This document shows positions 3,121 to 25,575 of a DNA stretch of 64,000 nt, in pieces (positions within the stretch are counted from its first letter, which is position 1; every line of letters begins with the position of its first letter). A program made the position numbers and the translations under genes. Source of the stretch: Rhizophagus irregularis (Eukaryota > Glomeromycota > Glomeromycetes > Glomerales > Glomeraceae); assembly GCF_026210795.1 (NCBI RefSeq), contig NC_089434.1:4154001-4218000 (forward strand). Reading direction: 5' to 3'. Below the pieces are notes generated by a model, which saw only the letters and a program-made list of their open reading frames with translations, was not told where the DNA came from and did not search any database.

Positions 3121-3717
3121 TTTTAGAATCTTATTAACTTAAAAAAAATAAAAAATCTTATATTATAGCTTATATTTTTAATATTTTATATAAAAAAAAG
3201 TAGGGAACTGAAGTTAAACAAATAAAAAATAATTTTTTCTTATGAATAATAATTTTTTTTTTTACTTACTGTTTAAAATAACCACTTTATATATTTATTA
3301 ATTTTTTTTAACAAAAAAGTGATTGAAAAGTGATTGAAAAAAAGAATTGGTTATTACCTTTGTTTTTGAATATAATAAAAAAAATTTTTTTATTTTCTGA
3401 TAAATTTGGATTATCTGAACATATAACACATATTTAATTTAGGTTTATAAAAGTTAAATGGATAAAATTTTATGAAAAATTTAATTTTGGGTTAACTTTA
3501 CTAACTGAAAGTTTCTTGAAGTTAAATCAGATGACCTTTGATTAAATATGTATTAAATTTTTTGTAAAGTTTAAAAATTGATAAGTATTGAATAAAAAGT
3601 AAAATAATTCTACAAAAAATAATATAGCATTAAACAATACAATGAGCAATTCTTGAGTGAATAATGTTCAGTAAATGTCAATAATCAGTACATAATATTA
3701 TTTTGCGTATTGTTTAA

Positions 3718-15790: not shown

Positions 15791-16125
15791 ATGAACGGGA
15801 ACGCCGGTCGAAACTACGAACCGGAATTAAGGTAAATGGGAGAGGGAGTCATTTTTTTATTTTAGAAGCGTTTTAACGTTTCTTTTTCTTTCTTTTTCTT
15901 GTAGGTATTGCCGGACGAAACGGGTTCGTGGTAATAAGGAAAAACTGGAACGGCTCGGGTGGCTTCCGAAGAACAGAATTACAGAAAGAACTAAGATTCG
16001 TAAGAATAACTAAGATTCGTAAGCAATTAGCAGTTTTTCTTTTAATATTATGGAACGGTTTACTAACCGTCCTTATTCTTCTTTATAGGTTTCGGGTAGG
16101 CTTCCGTTGGTAATTTTCACTACTC
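15791..16125 (+). other. Spliced-looking cassette: short exons and introns with TACTAAC branch point
   Basis: A possible first exon (ATG 15791-15831, 41 nt) is followed by a GT..AG intron (15832-15904) with a T/C tract ending CTTGTAG. The next exon-like stretch (from 15905) ends in AACTAAGATTC with GTAAG donors at about 16008 and 16020. The next intron contains GGTTTACTAACCG and ends TTCTTTATAG. A short exon, GTTTCGGGTAGGCTTCCGTTG, follows, then a GTAATT donor leading into the SF3B4 pseudogene. The conceptual peptide across the first splice is MNGNAGRNYEPEL followed by a basic stretch. Related cassettes are at 20893-21110 and 22385-22535 (minus). Function unknown. Confidence 0.55.
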
Positions 16126-16183
16126 ATTTTTATTTTGTTATTAGTTCAGCATTACTAATCAGAAAATATATTTTAACTTCAAG

Positions 16184-17232
16184 TCAATGTCACTTACCGA
16201 AAGATCTCGTAACTCAAACACATAAAGATTATGGATTTTGTGAGTATGAGTGAAGATGATGCAGATTATGCTATTAAAATATGAATCAAATCAAGCTGTA
16301 TGGGAAACCAATTCGTGTCAATTAAGTAAGCTGAAACATTTTGGTTTGCTTTTATTGTTCCTGTGTAGTATTGACGCTTCGTCGTATTATTATTAAGCAA
16401 CTTCGGACAAAAAGAATTTGGACGTAGGCGCTTCATTATTTATAAGGAACTTGGATCCTGGTGTTGGTGAAAAAATGTTGTACGATACGTTCAGCGCTTT
16501 TGGTGTTATCGTACAGACTCCCAAGGTATTAATATAGACTAATAATCGAATATCGAATTCATTTTGCATATTTAATTTTATTAAGTCGAAATATTTAATT
16601 TAGATTGCATGAGATCCCGATACTGGTAATAGTAAAGGGTATGGGTTTATTTCATATGATAATTTCGATTCTCAGATGCGGCAATTGATGCAATATCTGA
16701 ATAAACCAGTTACTGTATCATACGCGTTCAAAAGGGTAAAGGTGAAAGACATGGAAGTGCTGCAGGTTCGTATTTCTTCCGAATCGAATGTATTACTTTC
16801 AATGGGTGATCATTTTTTTTTATTGGTATACCTAGAACGTTTATTGGCAACCCAAGCGAAGAAAATCAAAGTCTTTTGTTTGCAGATGTTCGTCCACCTA
16901 CTGTTCCACCTCCAATGATAGGAGTTCGCCAGCTTCACCACAACAAATAAATACTGGAATGTCTCGTCCTGGCATACCACTTCCAATCGTTTCTCCAACA
17001 CGGAGGATATCATGCGCCAGGGACAAATACACAAACAGCAACACAATCATCGCCTAGACTATCTATCTATGATGAACGGAGCGTCAGGAGTATTTTATTT
17101 GATATGTTGTTTATCAAGAAAACGGTAAGGAATCTATGTGTATAATATTATAATTTATTTACATTATAATGCTATATCACTTAATCATATTTATTTGAAT
17201 AAATATTTTTTGAATGTCATAGAATACTCAAT
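16184..17232 (+). pseudogene. SF3B4: SF3B4 (Hsh49-type splicing factor 3b subunit 4) pseudogene, left copy
   Basis: Exon-like blocks encode recognisable SF3B4 segments: YGFCEYE..DDADYAIK (end of RRM1, ~16230), [28 protein letters not shown] (start of RRM2, ~16430), [15 protein letters not shown] (~16490), [20 protein letters not shown] (~16620), [11 protein letters not shown] and RLLATQAKK, then a proline-rich [14 protein letters not shown]. Introns are retained between the blocks (for example from 16527, GTATTAAT..TTTAG), so this is a DNA-level copy and not a processed one. Stops and frameshifts (TAA after GKPIRVN, lost frame after NFDS) make it non-functional. The functional family member is a U2 snRNP SF3b component with two RRMs. 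Homology with the inverted copy continues past the coding end to 17232. Confidence 0.9.
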
Positions 17233-18090
17233 AATCTTAAATCGCTTACTGAAAAACCAGGGGATTATCGATAATGTTTTGGAGATTGGGACCAGTAGTC
17301 GACCCATCTGCAGGATTTCCGTTAGACGGCATGAGTTTATGGAGCTCGGGCCAATGTAGGTCTACAGCACTTAATGTGAAGAACATCAAACTTACATCAA
17401 CCCTTCTGGACCTATCTGTTTAATCATGTGTCGAGAACCGCGTAGAGCCGTAGAGTGATTTGAGCATCGGCAAGGTTTATTTAAAATACACCTTCCCTTC
17501 TTGTAGTGTTCGCCAATGCATTTGAGAATTCGGAGCAAAGTATTTATTACCAATGGGAATAGCATGCAAATCTCCTTTCTTTATACAGGTGCAGGTTTTA
17601 CATTTTTAATACGCTCCGCACGAAAGATCTGCGCATCTAGTTGGGTATAATGTTGGCCTGGCGTTTGGATTTCATTGATGGGATGATTATTTATATGTGG
17701 CCATTCCATAGGATATTTTTCTTTTCGCATACGGTTAAGGGTGTTTTGGATGACGACATCTTCGTGATGAACCAAAGGACGAAAGTACGCGTGATTACAT
17801 CATCCTCCTCATAATGATCCAAATCTTCAGCAACTATTCGAGTATTTTACCGCAATATCATTACACGTTTAATGGATTTGACAACGGTTGAACAACGTTC
17901 AGAATTTCGTGTTCTTGCTAATATTAACCAGGAAAGAAACATAATTTGATGTCGCGAGTTTTCTGAATCGAGTTTAATCGAGGACCCGAACCAGAGCCAA
18001 AACAGACGATAGCGCTGCGAAATGAAGCCGGTTATCAATGGAACCATCGAAAGGCAAGGATTGAAGAATTTCATTATCGATTATAATGTC
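17233..18090 (-). pseudogene. N-terminal half of a Helitron helicase-type protein, decayed
   Basis: On the minus strand, from 18090 down, the relic encodes AEDLDHYEEDDV (~17800), HHEDVVIQNTLNRMRKEKYP and MEWPHINNHPINEIQTPG (17700-17775), a QMHWRTLQEG block (~17540), MIKQIGPEGLM (~17410), SAVDLHWPELHKLMP (~17350), NIIDNPLVF and finally WFFSKRFKI (~17240). These match in order the region before and inside the Helitron-like N domain of fungal Helitron proteins, recognised from memory. Frameshifts separate the blocks. The protein continues, with no missing residues that I can see, in the plus-strand piece starting at ~22536 (KDVIKRQWNLEDWWY). The two halves of one gene thus lie ~4.5 kb apart in opposite orientation. 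Confidence 0.75.
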
Positions 18091-20480
18091 TATGTAATAA
18101 CGGTTATTTTCTTTCAACCAGCATTATCTTATTACATTAAAAAAAAATACAATTATTCCATATCACAAATAAATCGTGTACTTTGCTTTTCGAATTAAAC
18201 TCTTTCACTCTAACTACCTGTAAATATTTTCTATGGGTAAAATTCAGTTTAAAAAAATTAATTAAAAGTTTCTAGTCCACCAACTGCTTTTTTACTGATA
18301 TTGCAGGTATTTTCATCATCATTACTTAATTAATCAGCTTGTACCAAATTAATAATTTCTTCATCAGTAAGACTTACATTAGGATTTACTATATATATTA
18401 ATATTAATTAGTAAGTCTGATTTTGACCATCAGTATATCTAAATTTCTGATGCGACTTTTTATGATGAATATAGCTTTCATGATTTTTGCTTCTATTAGA
18501 GAAACTGTTAAATAAAATTAGACTTCAAATTTTTTTCAATTGATGGAAAATTTAATTTTAAAGTTTATTCTAATCAGCTTGAAACTAAGAGTTTAGTTAG
18601 TAAATTCATCAATTCATCTTGTAATTCTTAGAATATAATAATTAAGTTTGGACATTTTTTTTTAGTTAATCTGTTAAAAAATGAACTTATTAAATATTTT
18701 TTAAAAATAATATTATATAGTAATTGAAATATGTTAATTACAAGAAAAAAAAAATTTAAGAGAATAAAGAGAAAAATGAAGAAATATTAAAAAAAATTCC
18801 ATAATACAAAAAAATTTTTTTTTTTTATATATTTAGATTTGTAAATTTTTAATTGTATTACAATGGTACATATGGGGATTTTTTGGTTGGGTCTGCTATT
18901 TAGAAACTTTGAATTGATTACTATATAAGAGTATTTGTACTGTTATTTTTCTTTTTAGCAAAAATCCAGAATTTTTTATTATATAATTCATAAATATAAA
19001 AGTTTCAAAAAAACTTTTATTTACAATTTACATATACAGTATATCATTTTTTTGAATCTTTTATAAAATCACTAAAATGCTTTTCATATAAATTTAGGAC
19101 TGAATCAGCTAGTTCTAGGCTAAAAAGTAAAAACTCTTCATAAAAATTATGATACAAAAAAAATATATATATAAATAGATAATATAAATATTATATAGTG
19201 GCATAATATCTATAAACTATGAGAACTTTTTTATTTTGAAGTAAAAATTTTTTTTCAGTAGAACTAATAATATTATATTTAAAGTACTAATAATTTATAA
19301 AATAAAATTTGACTTTTAAGTTTATAAACTTGTATTTTATTCATTTTAAAATCAAATTTTAATTACTTTTATTTAATTATTTTGATAAGTAAATTGTTGG
19401 CAAAAAGTAATTGGAAATGCAAAAAATGCAATAAATAAGAAAGTAAATTTTATAATTGGTTTTTTTTTAAAAAATTTAATATTGCACTATGTTATTAACA
19501 ATTAACTATATATTATAATAAAAAATTAAATATAAAAATATATCTTTAATTAATTTGGTTGTTATTTAGTATTTTTGTAAATAAAATTTACTAAAATATA
19601 CATGTACTACTGGTAGTATTTAATATTATAATATATATTTTTATAAAAATTATAGCTTAAATTATCAAAGAAGTTTAGTTATTCTAATTAATATTTTTAG
19701 TAATCTTAAAAACATGTGGAAAAAAAAATTTGGTTAGTACTATTCTTGCAAATATTGCAAAATAAAAAAAATTTGTAAAGTATATACTTATATTTTATAT
19801 TGAAATATAATTATTATATTAATAATATCAATTTAACCAAATTATTAATAATTCATATAAAATAAAAAGTTAAGGTAATAATAAATAAGAAAATGCATTA
19901 ATTATATAATTATGATATTAAATACTATAGTATGAAATATAATCTTTATAAATTAATATTAAATAGAAACTTTAATTTCAACTTTTTAACAACTAACAAA
20001 TAGATTTTTTTAATAAAATTAGTATAATGTATATTTTAATTTATAATCATCCAATTTTTTAATTTAAATTTTATTTTAAAATTTTTTTTTTTTGAATTAA
20101 AAAATCAATTGTGAAACAAGCAAATAAAATAAAAAGCTAATGCTTTATATATATAATAACAATCTATTTGGCAACGAATATATAAAATTTGATAACTGGT
20201 TTTTATTTATCAAATTTTTTGCAATTCCAATTACTTTTTATTAGTATTAATTTACAATTTAATCTAATTTATCTAAATAACCTATATATAAGTTATATAT
20301 TGTTAACTTGTTAATAATTAAAGCTATATTTAATGACTATACAATTAATTTTAAACAATTATGTGAAACTATATTTAGTCAAAAAAATTAGGTTTTTATT
20401 AAATCAATGTAAGATTTTACAAAATAAAAAAAGTCAACATAGTAATCCACAATTTTCACAATCACGTGATCCGCATCCGT
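18091..20480. other. Very AT-rich spacer, no gene seen
   Basis: About 2.4 kb of A/T-run-rich DNA with no open frame worth reporting, no clear tandem repeat and no terminal repeats recognised. It lies between the Helitron N-half and the microexon chain. Confidence 0.7.
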
Positions 20481-20485
20481 CTCAC

Positions 20486-20892
20486 TATACCTAAAGAAAA
20501 ATTAAAGTCCAAGTCTAAGTCCAACCTGAAATAAAATTCGGAAAGACAAAATTAAAAAAAAAGTTTCAAAACGAACTGTTTTAAAACTTACCAATCGATC
20601 CTATCATCCAGGATCCAGAAAGTTTAAGGAAGCTGAACCTACAAAAAAAAAGATAACTGAAAAAAATTAATAAAAAAATTTTTAAAAAAAGTTTTGAAGT
20701 GAAACACTTCAATACCTACCAATTCGGTCCAGGAAGTGCGAATCTGTCGATTTCTACAAATTAAAAGAAAAAAATTAATAATAAGAAAATAAAACTACCG
20801 ATTCCAAGACGCTGATCTACACGCTCTACAAAAGAAAATCACCAAAGCTGAAGAAAATTCAGAAAGGAAGAGAGAAAGAAGGCCTCGGAGTT
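20486..20892 (-). other. Chain of microexon-like units with canonical splice sites
   Basis: On the minus strand, short exon-like stretches alternate with GT..AG introns: 20799-20825 (27 nt), 20720-20753 (34 nt), 20592-20638 (47 nt) and 20491-20525 (35 nt). The introns between them are 45, 81 and 66 nt, with donors GTAGTTTTA, GTAGGTATT and GTAAGTTTT. Acceptors are preceded by T-rich tracts (TTTGTAG, TTTTTGTAG, TTTCAG). The exon-like parts are visibly richer in G+C than the introns. No continuous protein with a recognisable domain emerges. It follows the exon at 20979-21019 in the same orientation, so the chain may be one transcript. Confidence 0.5.
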
Positions 20893-21110
20893 CTTACAAA
20901 ATAACGAAATAGAAACGTTAATACAGTATAACGTTTCTTTTTTTTAAAAAAAAAATTGCTAAGATTCATAATACTTACAAATCTTAGTTCTTTTTTGTTC
21001 TTCAGAAGCCCACCCAAACCTATTAAAAAAAGAATAAGAACGGTTAGTAACCGATTCATAATATTAAAAAAAAACAAAAAAAGATTCGTAATGCTTACGA
21101 ATTGTAATTT
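20893..21110 (-). other. Exon/intron cassette, second copy
   Basis: On the minus strand the donor GTAAGCATT at 21098 sits in the palindrome ATTCGTAAGCATTACGAAT. The intron (21020-21098, 79 nt) holds GGTTACTAACCG and ends TTTTTAATAG. The exon 20979-21019 (41 nt, starting GTTTGGGTGGGCTTCTGAAG) ends at donor GTAAGTATT. The next intron (~85 nt) contains GTATTAACG within another imperfect palindrome and ends TTTTGTAAG at ~20893. The same exon and intron recur at 15791-16125 and 22385-22535. Confidence 0.6.
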
Positions 21111-22356
21111 TTGAGTATTCTATGACATTCAAAAAATATTTTTTCAAATAAATTGCATAATAAAGTGAAAATGAAAATGAACATGATTAAGTGATATAGC
21201 ATTGTAATGTAAATAAATTAGATTCCTTACCCGTTTTCTTGATAAACAACATATCAAATAAAAATACGCCTGACGCTACTATCATTGGAGGTGGAACAGT
21301 AGGTGGACGAACATCTGCAAACAAAGACTTTGATTTTCTTCGCTTTGGTGCAATGAACGTTCAAGGTATGCCAATAAAAAAAAATGATCAATTGAAAGTA
21401 ATACATTCTATTCAGAAGAAATTCGAACCTGCAGCACTTCCATGTCTTTCACCTTTACCCTTTTGAATGCGTATGATACAGTAATTGGTTTATTCAGATA
21501 TTGCATCAATTGCCGCATCTGAAGAATCGAAATTATCATATGAAATAAACCCATATCCTTTACTATTACCAGTCATGTAATCTAAATTAAATATTTCGAC
21601 TAAATAAAATTAAATATGCAAAATGAACTCGATAGATTATTAATCTATATTAATACCTTGGGAGTAGTGCTTCGATCCATAGCGGTTTTATCCGGATTTT
21701 CATCCAGATTGAATTTCATTAAATTTCGCTGGCACTATGAGTTTGGCCAGAATTAGTATAAATTTTTGGGATAATAATACTTTAATGTTATAGTCTGTTT
21801 AAATCTGAAATTCATAATCTTTCTCAGCCATAATCGTCATATGAAAATATTCAAGTTTTCATCCAGATCGAAGCACTACTTGGGAGTATGTACGATAACA
21901 TCAAAAGCGCTGAACGTATCATACAACATTTTTTCACCAACACCAGAATCCAAGTTCCTTATAAATAATGAAACGCCTACGTCCAAATTCTTTTTGTCTG
22001 AAGTTGCCTAATAATAATACGACAAAGCGTCAATACTACACAGCAAACAATAAAAACAAAACAAAATGTTTCAGCTTACTTAATTGACATGAATAGGTTT
22101 TCCATAGAGCTTGATTTGATTCATTATTTTAATAGCATAATCTGCATCCTCTTCACTCATACTCACAAAATCCATAATTTTGATGTGTTTGAATTACACG
22201 ATCTTCTGGTAAGTAAACATTGACTTGAAGTTAAAATATATTTTCTGATTAGTAATGCTGAACTTATAACAAAATAAAAATGAGCAGTGAAAATTACTAA
22301 CAGGTCCTGCCAGAAGCATTAACTCCCAAATAAGGTTACCAATGGACGAGCCATAA
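21111..22356 (-). pseudogene. SF3B4: SF3B4 pseudogene, right (inverted) copy
   Basis: This is the reverse complement of the left copy, with extra 5' sequence. From high to low coordinates it encodes IWELMLLAGPV (~22310), an intron with a TACTAAT branch-like site, [20 protein letters not shown] (~22210), the DADYAIK region, DKKNLDVG and the RRM2 blocks, then [13 protein letters not shown] (~21290). Intron positions match the left copy. It has a 216-bp MITE at 21664-21879 that the left copy lacks, and it lacks ~130 bp that the left copy has near 16920-17060. The first exon is shortened between GNL and IWELM. Stops and shifts differ from the left copy, so both decayed independently after duplication. 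Confidence 0.9.
21664..21879. mobile_element. MITE with 14-bp TIR GTAGTGCTTCGATC
   Basis: The ends are perfect inverted repeats (GTAGTGCTTCGATC at 21664-21677, complement at 21866-21879). A TTGGGAGTA direct repeat flanks it (21658-21666 and 21880-21888). It overlaps the TIR by three bases, so the TSD is 6-9 bp depending on where the end is placed. The left SF3B4 copy at ~16515 has the uninterrupted site, so the insertion is directly visible as an empty/filled pair. No coding capacity. Confidence 0.88.
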
Positions 22357-22384
22357 TGTCAAGAAAAAAAAAATTTTTTGACGC

Positions 22385-22535
22385 TAAATAATCTTGGTTC
22401 CACTTTTTCCGTTCTTCGGAAATCTACCCGAAACATATAAAAAAAGAACGGTTAGTAAACCGTTCCATAATATTAAAAAAAAAGCTACTAAGATTCGTAA
22501 TACTTACAAATTGTAATTTTTTCTTTAAGATGTTA
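22385..22535 (-). other. Exon/intron cassette, third copy
   Basis: On the minus strand, the donor GTAAGTATTACGAATC (~22511) is followed by a T tract, GGTTTACTAACCG (branch point inside a palindrome) and TTTCGGGTAGATTTCCGAAG. The acceptor reads TTTATATG where the other copies have TATAGG, so this copy appears to have lost its 3' splice site. It adjoins the Helitron C-half directly. Confidence 0.55.
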
Positions 22536-25500
22536 TAAAACGCCAATGGAATTTAGAAGATTGGTGGTACAGTTTCAAGTGGTAACACTGAGTAGTGTCC
22601 ATGTGCATGGAATCGGAAAAAGACGAAACGCAACTAAAATAGAATGGACCCGAATGAAAACGAGATGAATAATGTAGCACAATATCTTGATTCGCTCGTC
22701 ACAACGATAAATCCAGGTCTTAACGTACCTTAAAAAAGCAAAAGATGATGAACAAGATTACATTATCTTTGTCAATAAGCTGCAATGACACACACGTTAT
22801 AGTCCTTCGTATTGCCTTTGCAAATTCAATTACCCAAAGGAAAGTGTCAAACGTACCTTCGTACATGAAGAGGAACGTGATCAGCCAGAACTTATAAGTC
22901 AAAAGGCGACCCATTGGTCAACCAACATAGCCGGCTTCAATTGCAAGGTTGGCGAGCAAATGTTATTCATGTAGCCTTGCAGTATGTTTCAAAGTACGCA
23001 AGCCGCAAAACAATATTTCTGCTCAAAAAACTTTCCACCTTCTCTTAGGTATTCCCCTCTACCATTCAAGTAGGACATCTGTATGCTTGAATCTTAATAA
23101 GAAAACGCTAAGGTGGATTCGTGGCACCAGAGAAAGTGGAGAGTTTAATATAGTCGATTCTGGACGGGCGGAACAATCATTTTTAAAGAGATACTAAGAT
23201 TGACCTGCTTAATTTGATGATTTTACGTATTTCAAACATAATACGTAACTTTCTGCGCAATTACCTTTGTGTAAAGGCCCTCAATGGGAAGAGTTTTGCC
23301 TCAGAATTAAGATCTTCAACAATTGACTGAGACATTCCATAGTCAGCTTTATACGACCGCCATATTGAAGTAATCAAACGCTGATTTAATTGATATGCTT
23401 GGGCACCCGTAAATAACAAACCAAACGAAATTGTTGATGAAAAGGATGAAGAAACTCTCGAATAGGGATCGGAAAAGATTCGATTAAAATCGAAACTATC
23501 GAAAATTGATAAGAATCGATTTTAAATCGAATCTCGAATAAAAATCGAATCTACTTATTGTGGCGCAGTTCCGTTAATTTGACCGTAAATTATTATTTGT
23601 TCATAATAGTTAATTTTGGCCAAATTCATAATTCCGCTCGCGAATCATGTGACAGAACACAAACTTCCTAAAAAGGAAATTTTATCTCCCAATAAAATTC
23701 AAGTTGCTATCGCACAAGGTTGTACAAATTTCCAAAAAAGGAAATTTGTTCGTCGATCACTGTAATTTTTTGTAATCACATAATATGTGTTTAAACACAC
23801 CTATTATAAATAGTATAAAAAAAAATCGGAAACGATTAATCGCGATTAATCGATTTTAGAATCGATTCTAATAATGGGAATTGATTCCAATCCCTACTCT
23901 CAAAGATGATGATAACGACGAATTTTGATTTGATTGGATGTTTCTAGCAGAAATGCAATCATCGACAGTCCTTCCGACCTAGGTTTACGAAATATGGATT
24001 GGAGCTACGATTGGATTAACGAAGCTAGGCAAAGATATTCCAATACAGACTTTCTGGAAGCAGATACTTTTGTGAGTAGAGTTTCCATTAATTGGCAAGA
24101 AAATAACGTTCTAAATACAGGTACCTTGGATTATCAGATATTAAATGATGGCCTTCAAGCGAATAGAGTCGCATTACAACGATATACTTAAAGACCATCG
24201 AATTGAGCGGACTGCAGGAAATGGAAAAACATACTTCAATAATGAAATATGAAGTAAACTTCGTGAGATGATAGGAGTCGGGTCTGAGTTGTTCTTACGC
24301 CAACAGATGTAGCTTTCAACATCAATGGGATTACAATCCATTCAGCGCTTTCCATCCTAATAAATTGCTAATAGAAGTCTTGTCATTAATGGTGAACAGC
24401 TACAGCAGCTATATTGTAATCGATGAGAAAGTATAATCAGTTGCCGAATGTTTGGATTAATCGACATGAGACTCAGCAAGAACATAGTAATGAACCCTTT
24501 GGTAGTAGAACAGCTATGACTTTGGACAACCTCCGTCTGTGCTTGATCTTCCTATGTATACCAACATTCCGCAAGATCAATTGTTTAATAACGGTATCGC
24601 AGCATACCATCAGTTTAAAGAAGTATACAAACTTGATGTTGTTCAACGCCAATCTGGGAATACCAAAAGAGCAGCAAAACTTTAGTGGCCTTCTCTTACG
24701 GTTGCGTAATGGAGAGTCTATATTAGATGACTGGAAGGTGCTTACTACACTATTTGAAGGAAAGATAGATATAATAGAGAATAAAGATTAAGATTCTTCA
24801 ACTCTATGTTCATGCTAACGAGGTGGAAGGTGTTGATGCAGTCAACATTGATAAGCTCAGGTCACTGAATGCTCCTGTTGCTAAAATTCATGCTGTACAT
24901 ACAATCAGCAACGAAGCCGAAAAAGCAAATTATGATGTTGCACATAGACCGTGAAATAAAATTGTTACTGACAAGAGGTGCACGTATTTTGCTGACGGCA
25001 AACTTGTGAACGGAAGCTGGATAAGTTAATGGTGCGATGGGATCAGTCAGGATATTTTATTCAGAGGAGATCAAGGGCCGCCTTCTCTTTCTGTGGCAGT
25101 TTTGGCTTCTTTTGACAAAGAATTGAAAAGAATTTAGACTTTTTTAAAAAAAAAAATTTTTTTTTATTTATTTTATGATGTCAAAAAATCCAGTATTGAA
25201 CACATACAAGTTCGTGAGTACGTCAATTACGAAGGTCCTACTCTTACCAGCTTAGAGGGCACAAAGAGTTATTCGACGTAACTGGGAGTATAATTCCGGA
25301 ATACTATGTTCATGACTACAGATTCCTGTTCGTCTCGCATGGGCCATTACCGTATACAAGAGCCAGGGATTCACGTTACAGAAGGCTATAATAGATCTTG
25401 ACAGCAAAGAATTTACAGCCGGTCTCTCATTTGTGGCGGTGTTCTGAGTCTATTCTATCAAAGATCTCTTCAAACCCTTTAGTTTTGAGAGGCTCCAACA

Positions 25501-25575
25501 GATCAAAGAATAAAAGATTAGGAGGAAAGACGAAGAAGAATGGCTGGTTTCTCTGACAAGAAATTGAGATCTTAA
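22536..25575 (+). pseudogene. C-terminal half of a Helitron Pif1-type helicase protein, decayed
   Basis: Blocks in order are KRQWNLEDWWYSFKW (~22550), a VHVHGIGKRRNATKIEW HUH-region stretch (~22600), AQYLDSLVTTINPGLNVP, YPKESVKRTFVHEEERDQPE (~22850), LQLQGWRANVI and HLLLGIPLYHSSR (~23040). The Pif1 helicase follows: AGNGKTYF (Walker A, ~24220), FNINGI, VIDEKV (Walker B, ~24420), EPFGSR, LLLRLRNGESILDDWKVLTT (~24700), LLTRGARMLLT-like remains, NYEGPTLTSLEG (~25225) and KDEEEWL (~25540). Many stops and shifts. A hAT-type MITE (23463-23896) splits it, and ~105 bp of foreign A/T-rich DNA lies at ~25118-25222. The Helitron_like_N plus Pif1 order is diagnostic of Helitrons. No Helitron 3' terminus (CTRR after a hairpin) was recognised. 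Confidence 0.82.
23463..23896. mobile_element. Non-autonomous hAT-type element (434 bp) inside the Helitron
   Basis: The TIRs are TAGGGATCGGAA and, inverted, TAGGGATTGGAA. The flanks are CTCTCGAA (23455-23462) and CTCTCAAA (23897-23904), an 8-bp TSD with one change. Removing it joins the Helitron codons EETL to KDDDNDEF in frame. Subterminal palindromes include CGATTAATCGCGATTAATCG at ~23838. The TIR resembles that of the complete hAT at 44192-46590 (TAGGGATGGG), which could have mobilised it. Confidence 0.85.

Follow-up and report, generated by a model that had tools for sequence, protein, structure and literature searches.

A decayed Helitron and its neighbouring SF3B4 pseudogenes are probably rearranged by a single two-break inversion

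Results

A decayed Helitron lies split in the analysed window (C6:4154001-4218000, 64,000 nucleotides of the 146.7-Mb genome G000, which comprises 32 contigs). Its N-half is found on the minus strand and its C-half on the plus strand, and two SF3B4 pseudogenes, here called copies A and B, stand beside it in opposite orientation (Table 1). Very probably, this arrangement arose when one inversion with two breaks flipped about 5.3 kb (17234-22519) and was sealed by end joining; until then, a direct array A-cassette-B would have been located upstream of the Helitron. The inversion is known from the assembly alone. The four edges created at the breaks fit two independent unbroken references. Moreover, flipping 17234-22519 closes the Helitron and makes A and B direct neighbours, so that one event would explain all four edges. 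The initial annotation had proposed that one Helitron was cut in two and that an inversion next to the SF3B4 copies turned one of the halves around, and this part is supported. It had attributed the flip to homologous recombination between the inverted SF3B4 copies, with ends at 17232 and 21110, and this part is not supported.

Table 1. Features of the rearranged locus; positions are those of the window
Feature	Position	Strand	Remarks
Exon cassette upstream of SF3B4 copy A	15979..16106	+	Form AAGATTCGTAAG, without SF3B4 scar
SF3B4 pseudogene copy A	16104..17234	+	Including 3′ tail ending GTCATAGAATACTCAATAA
Proposed inversion junction 1, SF3B4-A tail to Helitron N-half	17232..17236		About 2 bases (AA) shared
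Helitron N-half (decayed)	17233..18120	-	Starts at residue 292 of relative L007 ORF1
Insertion of ~180 bases in Helitron N-half	17843..18023		Gap between matches to L007 and L008
AT-rich spacer within inverted block	18120..20478		Patches of dispersed repeats
Microexon-like chain downstream of SF3B4-B	20478..20866	-	Paralogous to parts of L001, L002, L004
Exon cassette after SF3B4-B	20946..21112	-	SF3B4 scar AAATTACAATTCGTAAG at 21094-21110
SF3B4 pseudogene copy B	21110..22392	-	
Dispersed repeat of 214 bases inside SF3B4 copy B	21665..21878		Not in copy A; many places at 88-94%
Exon cassette upstream of SF3B4-B	22390..22519	-	Begins with orphan SF3B4 scar AAATTACAATTTGTAAG at 22503-22519
Proposed inversion junction 2, cassette scar to Helitron C-half	22519..22524		0-1 shared bases
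Helitron C-half (decayed)	22520..25555	+	Remaining Helitron_like_N region, then PIF1-type helicase homology

Identity of the two Helitron halves

The minus strand encodes the N-half up to WFFSKRFKI, which ends at 17233, and the next Helitron residues (DVIKRQWNLEDWWY) are read on the plus strand from about 22524, in agreement with the split initially annotated. When proteins of related Helitrons were compared with the window by tblastn, the N-half was matched at 18120-17255 and the C-half at 22529-25555. The point at which the window copy is split is uninterrupted in all seven relatives examined (L006-L012), and KRFEI[FY]FNDVL was found there in each of the six, among these seven, for which a frame was printed.

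Domains were assigned to the window copy through the proteins of the relatives L007 and L008; searched against Pfam, the pieces of the window copy itself yielded no Helitron match and a single chance match under the cut-off. The L008 protein matches Helitron_like_N (PF14214) at 2e-16 over residues 15-97, and the window pieces align to its residues 13-55 and 70-89. As the window break is therefore located between L008 residues 55 and 70, it falls inside the Helitron_like_N region. L007 ORF3, which aligns to window positions 24288-25555, matches PIF1 (PF05970) at 8.3e-28. Helitrons encode a Rep protein together with a PIF1-type helicase, have 5′ TC and 3′ CTRR ends and insert between A and T. 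The relatives of the window copy bear both Helitron_like_N and PIF1. The window copy itself, on the other hand, is decayed, with many stops, and is split; for residues 1-291 of L007 ORF1 the window contains no match at E <= 1e-3. Pieces of the insertion in its N-half match many other places.

The Helitron edges abut in unbroken relatives

We aligned each of the four edges separately to unbroken references. In four of the seven Helitron relatives (L009, L010, L011 and L012) the N piece and the C piece overlap by 2 bases. The overlap is 1 base in L008 and 5 bases in L007, and in L006 the N alignment extends about 20 bases beyond the start of the C piece. Since the pieces abut or overlap in the relatives, the split need not have cost any Helitron sequence. 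The chance of the Helitron edges abutting this closely, to within 2 bases out of an assumed total of 4,250, was about 0.001 in a uniform simulation.

The SF3B4 copies and the join between SF3B4 tail and cassette

The inverted SF3B4 pair described in the initial annotation was recovered, with 92.9% identity between 16106-16525 and 22301-21879 and 91.4% between 16517-16924 and 21665-21276, as was the common tail text near 17218 and 21110. A third inverted block pairs 17072-17235 with 21285-21107 at 80%. The inverted homology extends past the other end of B and through its cassette, to 22491 or, at 77%, to 22528, and the Helitron C-half starts at the outer edge of this cassette unit. For a 39-residue fragment of copy A the best match was to the SF3B4 chains of solved spliceosomes (2.3e-17), and the same fragment matches RRM_1 at 1.9e-5. 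Both copies contain stops and frame changes. The fullest SF3B4 copy was found at L003 (2514-4234, on C2), the sole copy among those read with a further 3′ coding stretch. This stretch is missing from A, B, L005, L001, L002 and, at L004, from the minus copy; the plus copy there stops short of it. L003 is a probable parent gene.

In the paralogue L005 the SF3B4 tail passes directly into the cassette (GAATACTCAATAAATTACAATTCGTAAG). Aligned to it, the tail of A covers bases 21-66 and the cassette upstream of B covers bases 62-162, an overlap of 5 bases. With the window's own join at 21110 as the reference, the corresponding ranges are 19-64 and 59-159. In L004 the tail of A ends at base 73 and the cassette of B matches only from base 97; the cassette start has diverged there, and L004 therefore lends no support to the B edge. 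In a uniform simulation, the chance of the SF3B4 edges abutting this closely (to within 5 bases out of an assumed total of 1,300) was about 0.008.

The word ATTACAAT is part of the 3′ end of the SF3B4 gene, where L003 reads AATAAATTACAATAAATAAATT, so that a cassette starting with ATTACAAT once came after an SF3B4 copy. We found three occurrences of the scar AAATTACAATTYGTAAG in G000, at 21094-21110 and 22503-22519 of the window and in L005, compared to one occurrence of the reversed-pattern control. The scars at 21094-21110 and in L005 are preceded by an SF3B4 tail, whereas only the scar at 22519 adjoins the Helitron C-half instead. The tail GTCATAGAATAYTCAATAA occurs four times in the genome (control: 0). 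At C2, L004 and L005 it continues into ATTACAAT, and only the copy at 17234 passes into the Helitron N-half; the tail of copy B differs and was left out of this count. The flipped block extends from the orphan tail at 17234 to the orphan scar at 22519.

The scar is missing from the cassette upstream of A and present on the two later cassettes, which matches the prediction of a direct tandem A-cassette-B. It is because of the scar that we propose this array; no intact direct array SF3B4-cassette-SF3B4 was present among the five other SF3B4 loci read (L001-L005).

Proposed course of the inversion

Before the event, the plus strand would have carried cassette, SF3B4 A, cassette, SF3B4 B, cassette, microexon chain, AT-rich spacer and Helitron (N, C), all in one direction. 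Break 1 would have occurred where the 3′ tail of A met the cassette following it, and break 2 would have separated the KRFKI and KDV codons in the Helitron_like_N region. End joining would then have put the middle piece back in reverse, using about 0-2 shared bases and adding about 1 base net. By visual count, about 2 bases are shared at junction 1 and 0-1 at junction 2, and the bases balance to about one extra A, located in the A-run at junction 2. The few shared bases together with the near-balanced bases point to end joining. Most likely, A and B originally stood as direct repeats, and the inversion produced their inverted order instead of being brought about by it. The site at 21110 would in this course of events be an old join and no breakpoint.

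Along the unit, A and B differ by 6.4%, 3.7% and 2.8% (gaps left out), and the inversion is younger than the duplication that gave rise to them. The split of the Helitron copy from its relatives is deeper than the A/B divergence (end branch about 0.27).

Small inversions made by non-homologous or microhomology end joining resemble this locus in having two breaks, a reversed middle, 0-2 shared bases and almost no loss or gain. We see no difference in kind; the locus is unusual only in that paralogues elsewhere in its own genome reveal both parental joins. With inversions made by homologous recombination the locus shares the inverted SF3B4 copies that now stand at both ends of the region. However, the best breakpoints, at the edge of the A tail and the outer edge of the unit of B on one side and in mid-Helitron on the other, are located outside the A/B homology. 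The locus has two non-homologous joins, one between SF3B4 tail and Helitron and one between cassette scar and Helitron, both of which resolve into known joins, and the breaks are not internal to the repeats; little sequence is shared at the joins, with few bases lost or gained.

The inversion is of an ordinary kind, with both original joins recoverable almost to the base. Among the titles and opening lines of abstracts retrieved in literature searches, none concerned this inversion, and the word 'inversion' does not occur in the text of PMC11075540. The locus is a clean case in which paralogues within a single genome allow both joins that preceded an inversion to be reconstructed. As a caution, inverted repeats that flank an inversion today may have been generated by it and need not have caused it.

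Alternative explanations

A crossover inside the A/B homology leaves the outer flanks and the tail neighbours unchanged, so that neither Helitron edge is produced by it. Homologous recombination could have contributed if the SF3B4 unit containing B had first inserted into the Helitron and the inverted copies A and B had then recombined, flipping 17232-21110. We consider this improbable. It would agree with the 91-93% likeness of A and B over two ~400-base inverted blocks, and flipping 17232-21110 likewise places a scarred cassette after an SF3B4 tail, since a join of this type already exists at 21110. However, two events are needed, and the inserted 1.4-kb SF3B4 unit would have to be exactly one array period, with edges complementary within about 5 bases that by coincidence form both sides of one known join. 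The word TTTAAGAT, which is present at both Helitron edges, could in principle be a target-site duplication left by the insertion. We dropped this reading as an 8-base duplication, as each of the two words aligns with sequence in the relatives (GATTTGAAAT and TCTTTAACGAC), and both therefore belong to the Helitron. Recombination also predicts a swap of lineage along A and B. In what is a weak test, the excess of B-private over A-private substitutions stayed the same in direction along the copies (13 to 4, 10 to 2 and 4 to 1); this tally covers 34 of the 46 listed sites, the 12 ambiguous ones being left out.

We also compared the history of the two Helitron halves in trees of 13 rows, from which L015 was removed as its N part formed a long branch; with L015 included, the window copy had no supported partner. 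The N-half grouped with L007/L008 (95/97), and the C-half branched outside the whole set of relatives L006-L012 (100/100). For the N data, a grouping of the seven relatives without the window copy was not quite rejected (p-AU 0.058), and a grouping of the window copy with L009-L012 gave the same p-AU. For the C data, the window copy with L007/L008 was rejected (p-AU 0.0006), and with L009-L012 the p-AU was 0.0007. Near the break, the N part is 71.9-74.3% identical to L006-L012, and the signal for L007/L008 comes from the far part. The different placements could mean that the halves derive from two different Helitron copies, each independently cut next to SF3B4 sequence. Against this stand the Helitron edges, which abut to 2 bases in four of the seven relatives (about 0.001 by chance), the similar end branches of the two halves (0.28 and 0.27) and the SF3B4 edges, which fit each other too, and we regard two separate copies as very unlikely.

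Least likely of all is that the locus was flipped in the assembly via the A/B inverted repeats, which span about 1.2 kb here, as a mis-join through repeats swaps only the interior and leaves the outer join at 22519 and the tail neighbours unchanged, so that no Helitron edges are made; the single inversion is presumably real in the organism beyond the assembly.

CACTA-like elements carrying cassettes and SF3B4

Two other SF3B4 loci, L001 (C13, 2451-5434) and L002 (C18, 2292-5241), are 98.4% alike over 2,987 bases. Both are bounded by CACTAGT...ACTAGTG terminal repeats, outside which GAA stands on either side, and both contain exon cassettes, an SF3B4 pseudogene and the downstream chain. We take these bounds to resemble those of a CACTA element with a 3-base duplication. 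The locus L019 (C30, 761-1785) has the same left end and cassettes, at 88% over 1,041 bases. In the 5,001 bases read there, no match to SF3B4 (L003) and no right end were found, and L019 may represent the state before SF3B4 capture. Of 78 candidate places for the right end of L001 in G000, 40 were scored, including L001 and L002 themselves. All but one of these 40 stop at query base 182-185, forming a large dispersed family, and at least 10 of the 40 sit a few hundred bases downstream of a cassette and microexon chain. Another inverted SF3B4 pair is located at L004 (2722-5210), where a CACTAGT end at 3311 directly adjoins the broken end of one copy.

The SF3B4 copies may have travelled as passengers. 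It is possible, if rather doubtful, that a CACTA-like family with tandem cassettes and microexon chains captured and spread an intron-containing splicing-factor gene, and that the SF3B4-cassette join was then broken repeatedly, as in the window inversion and in the L004 pair. That exon-cassette elements whose ends are CACTA-like contain a splicing-factor gene may be a more interesting lead than the inversion. We do not claim that the cassettes are SP7-type effector genes, as no link between the cassettes and SP7 was found in the passages of PMC11333574 consulted.

Two strong local direct-repeat arrays, distant from the Helitron/SF3B4 locus, were also observed in the window, at 804-2177 and 58111-59080.
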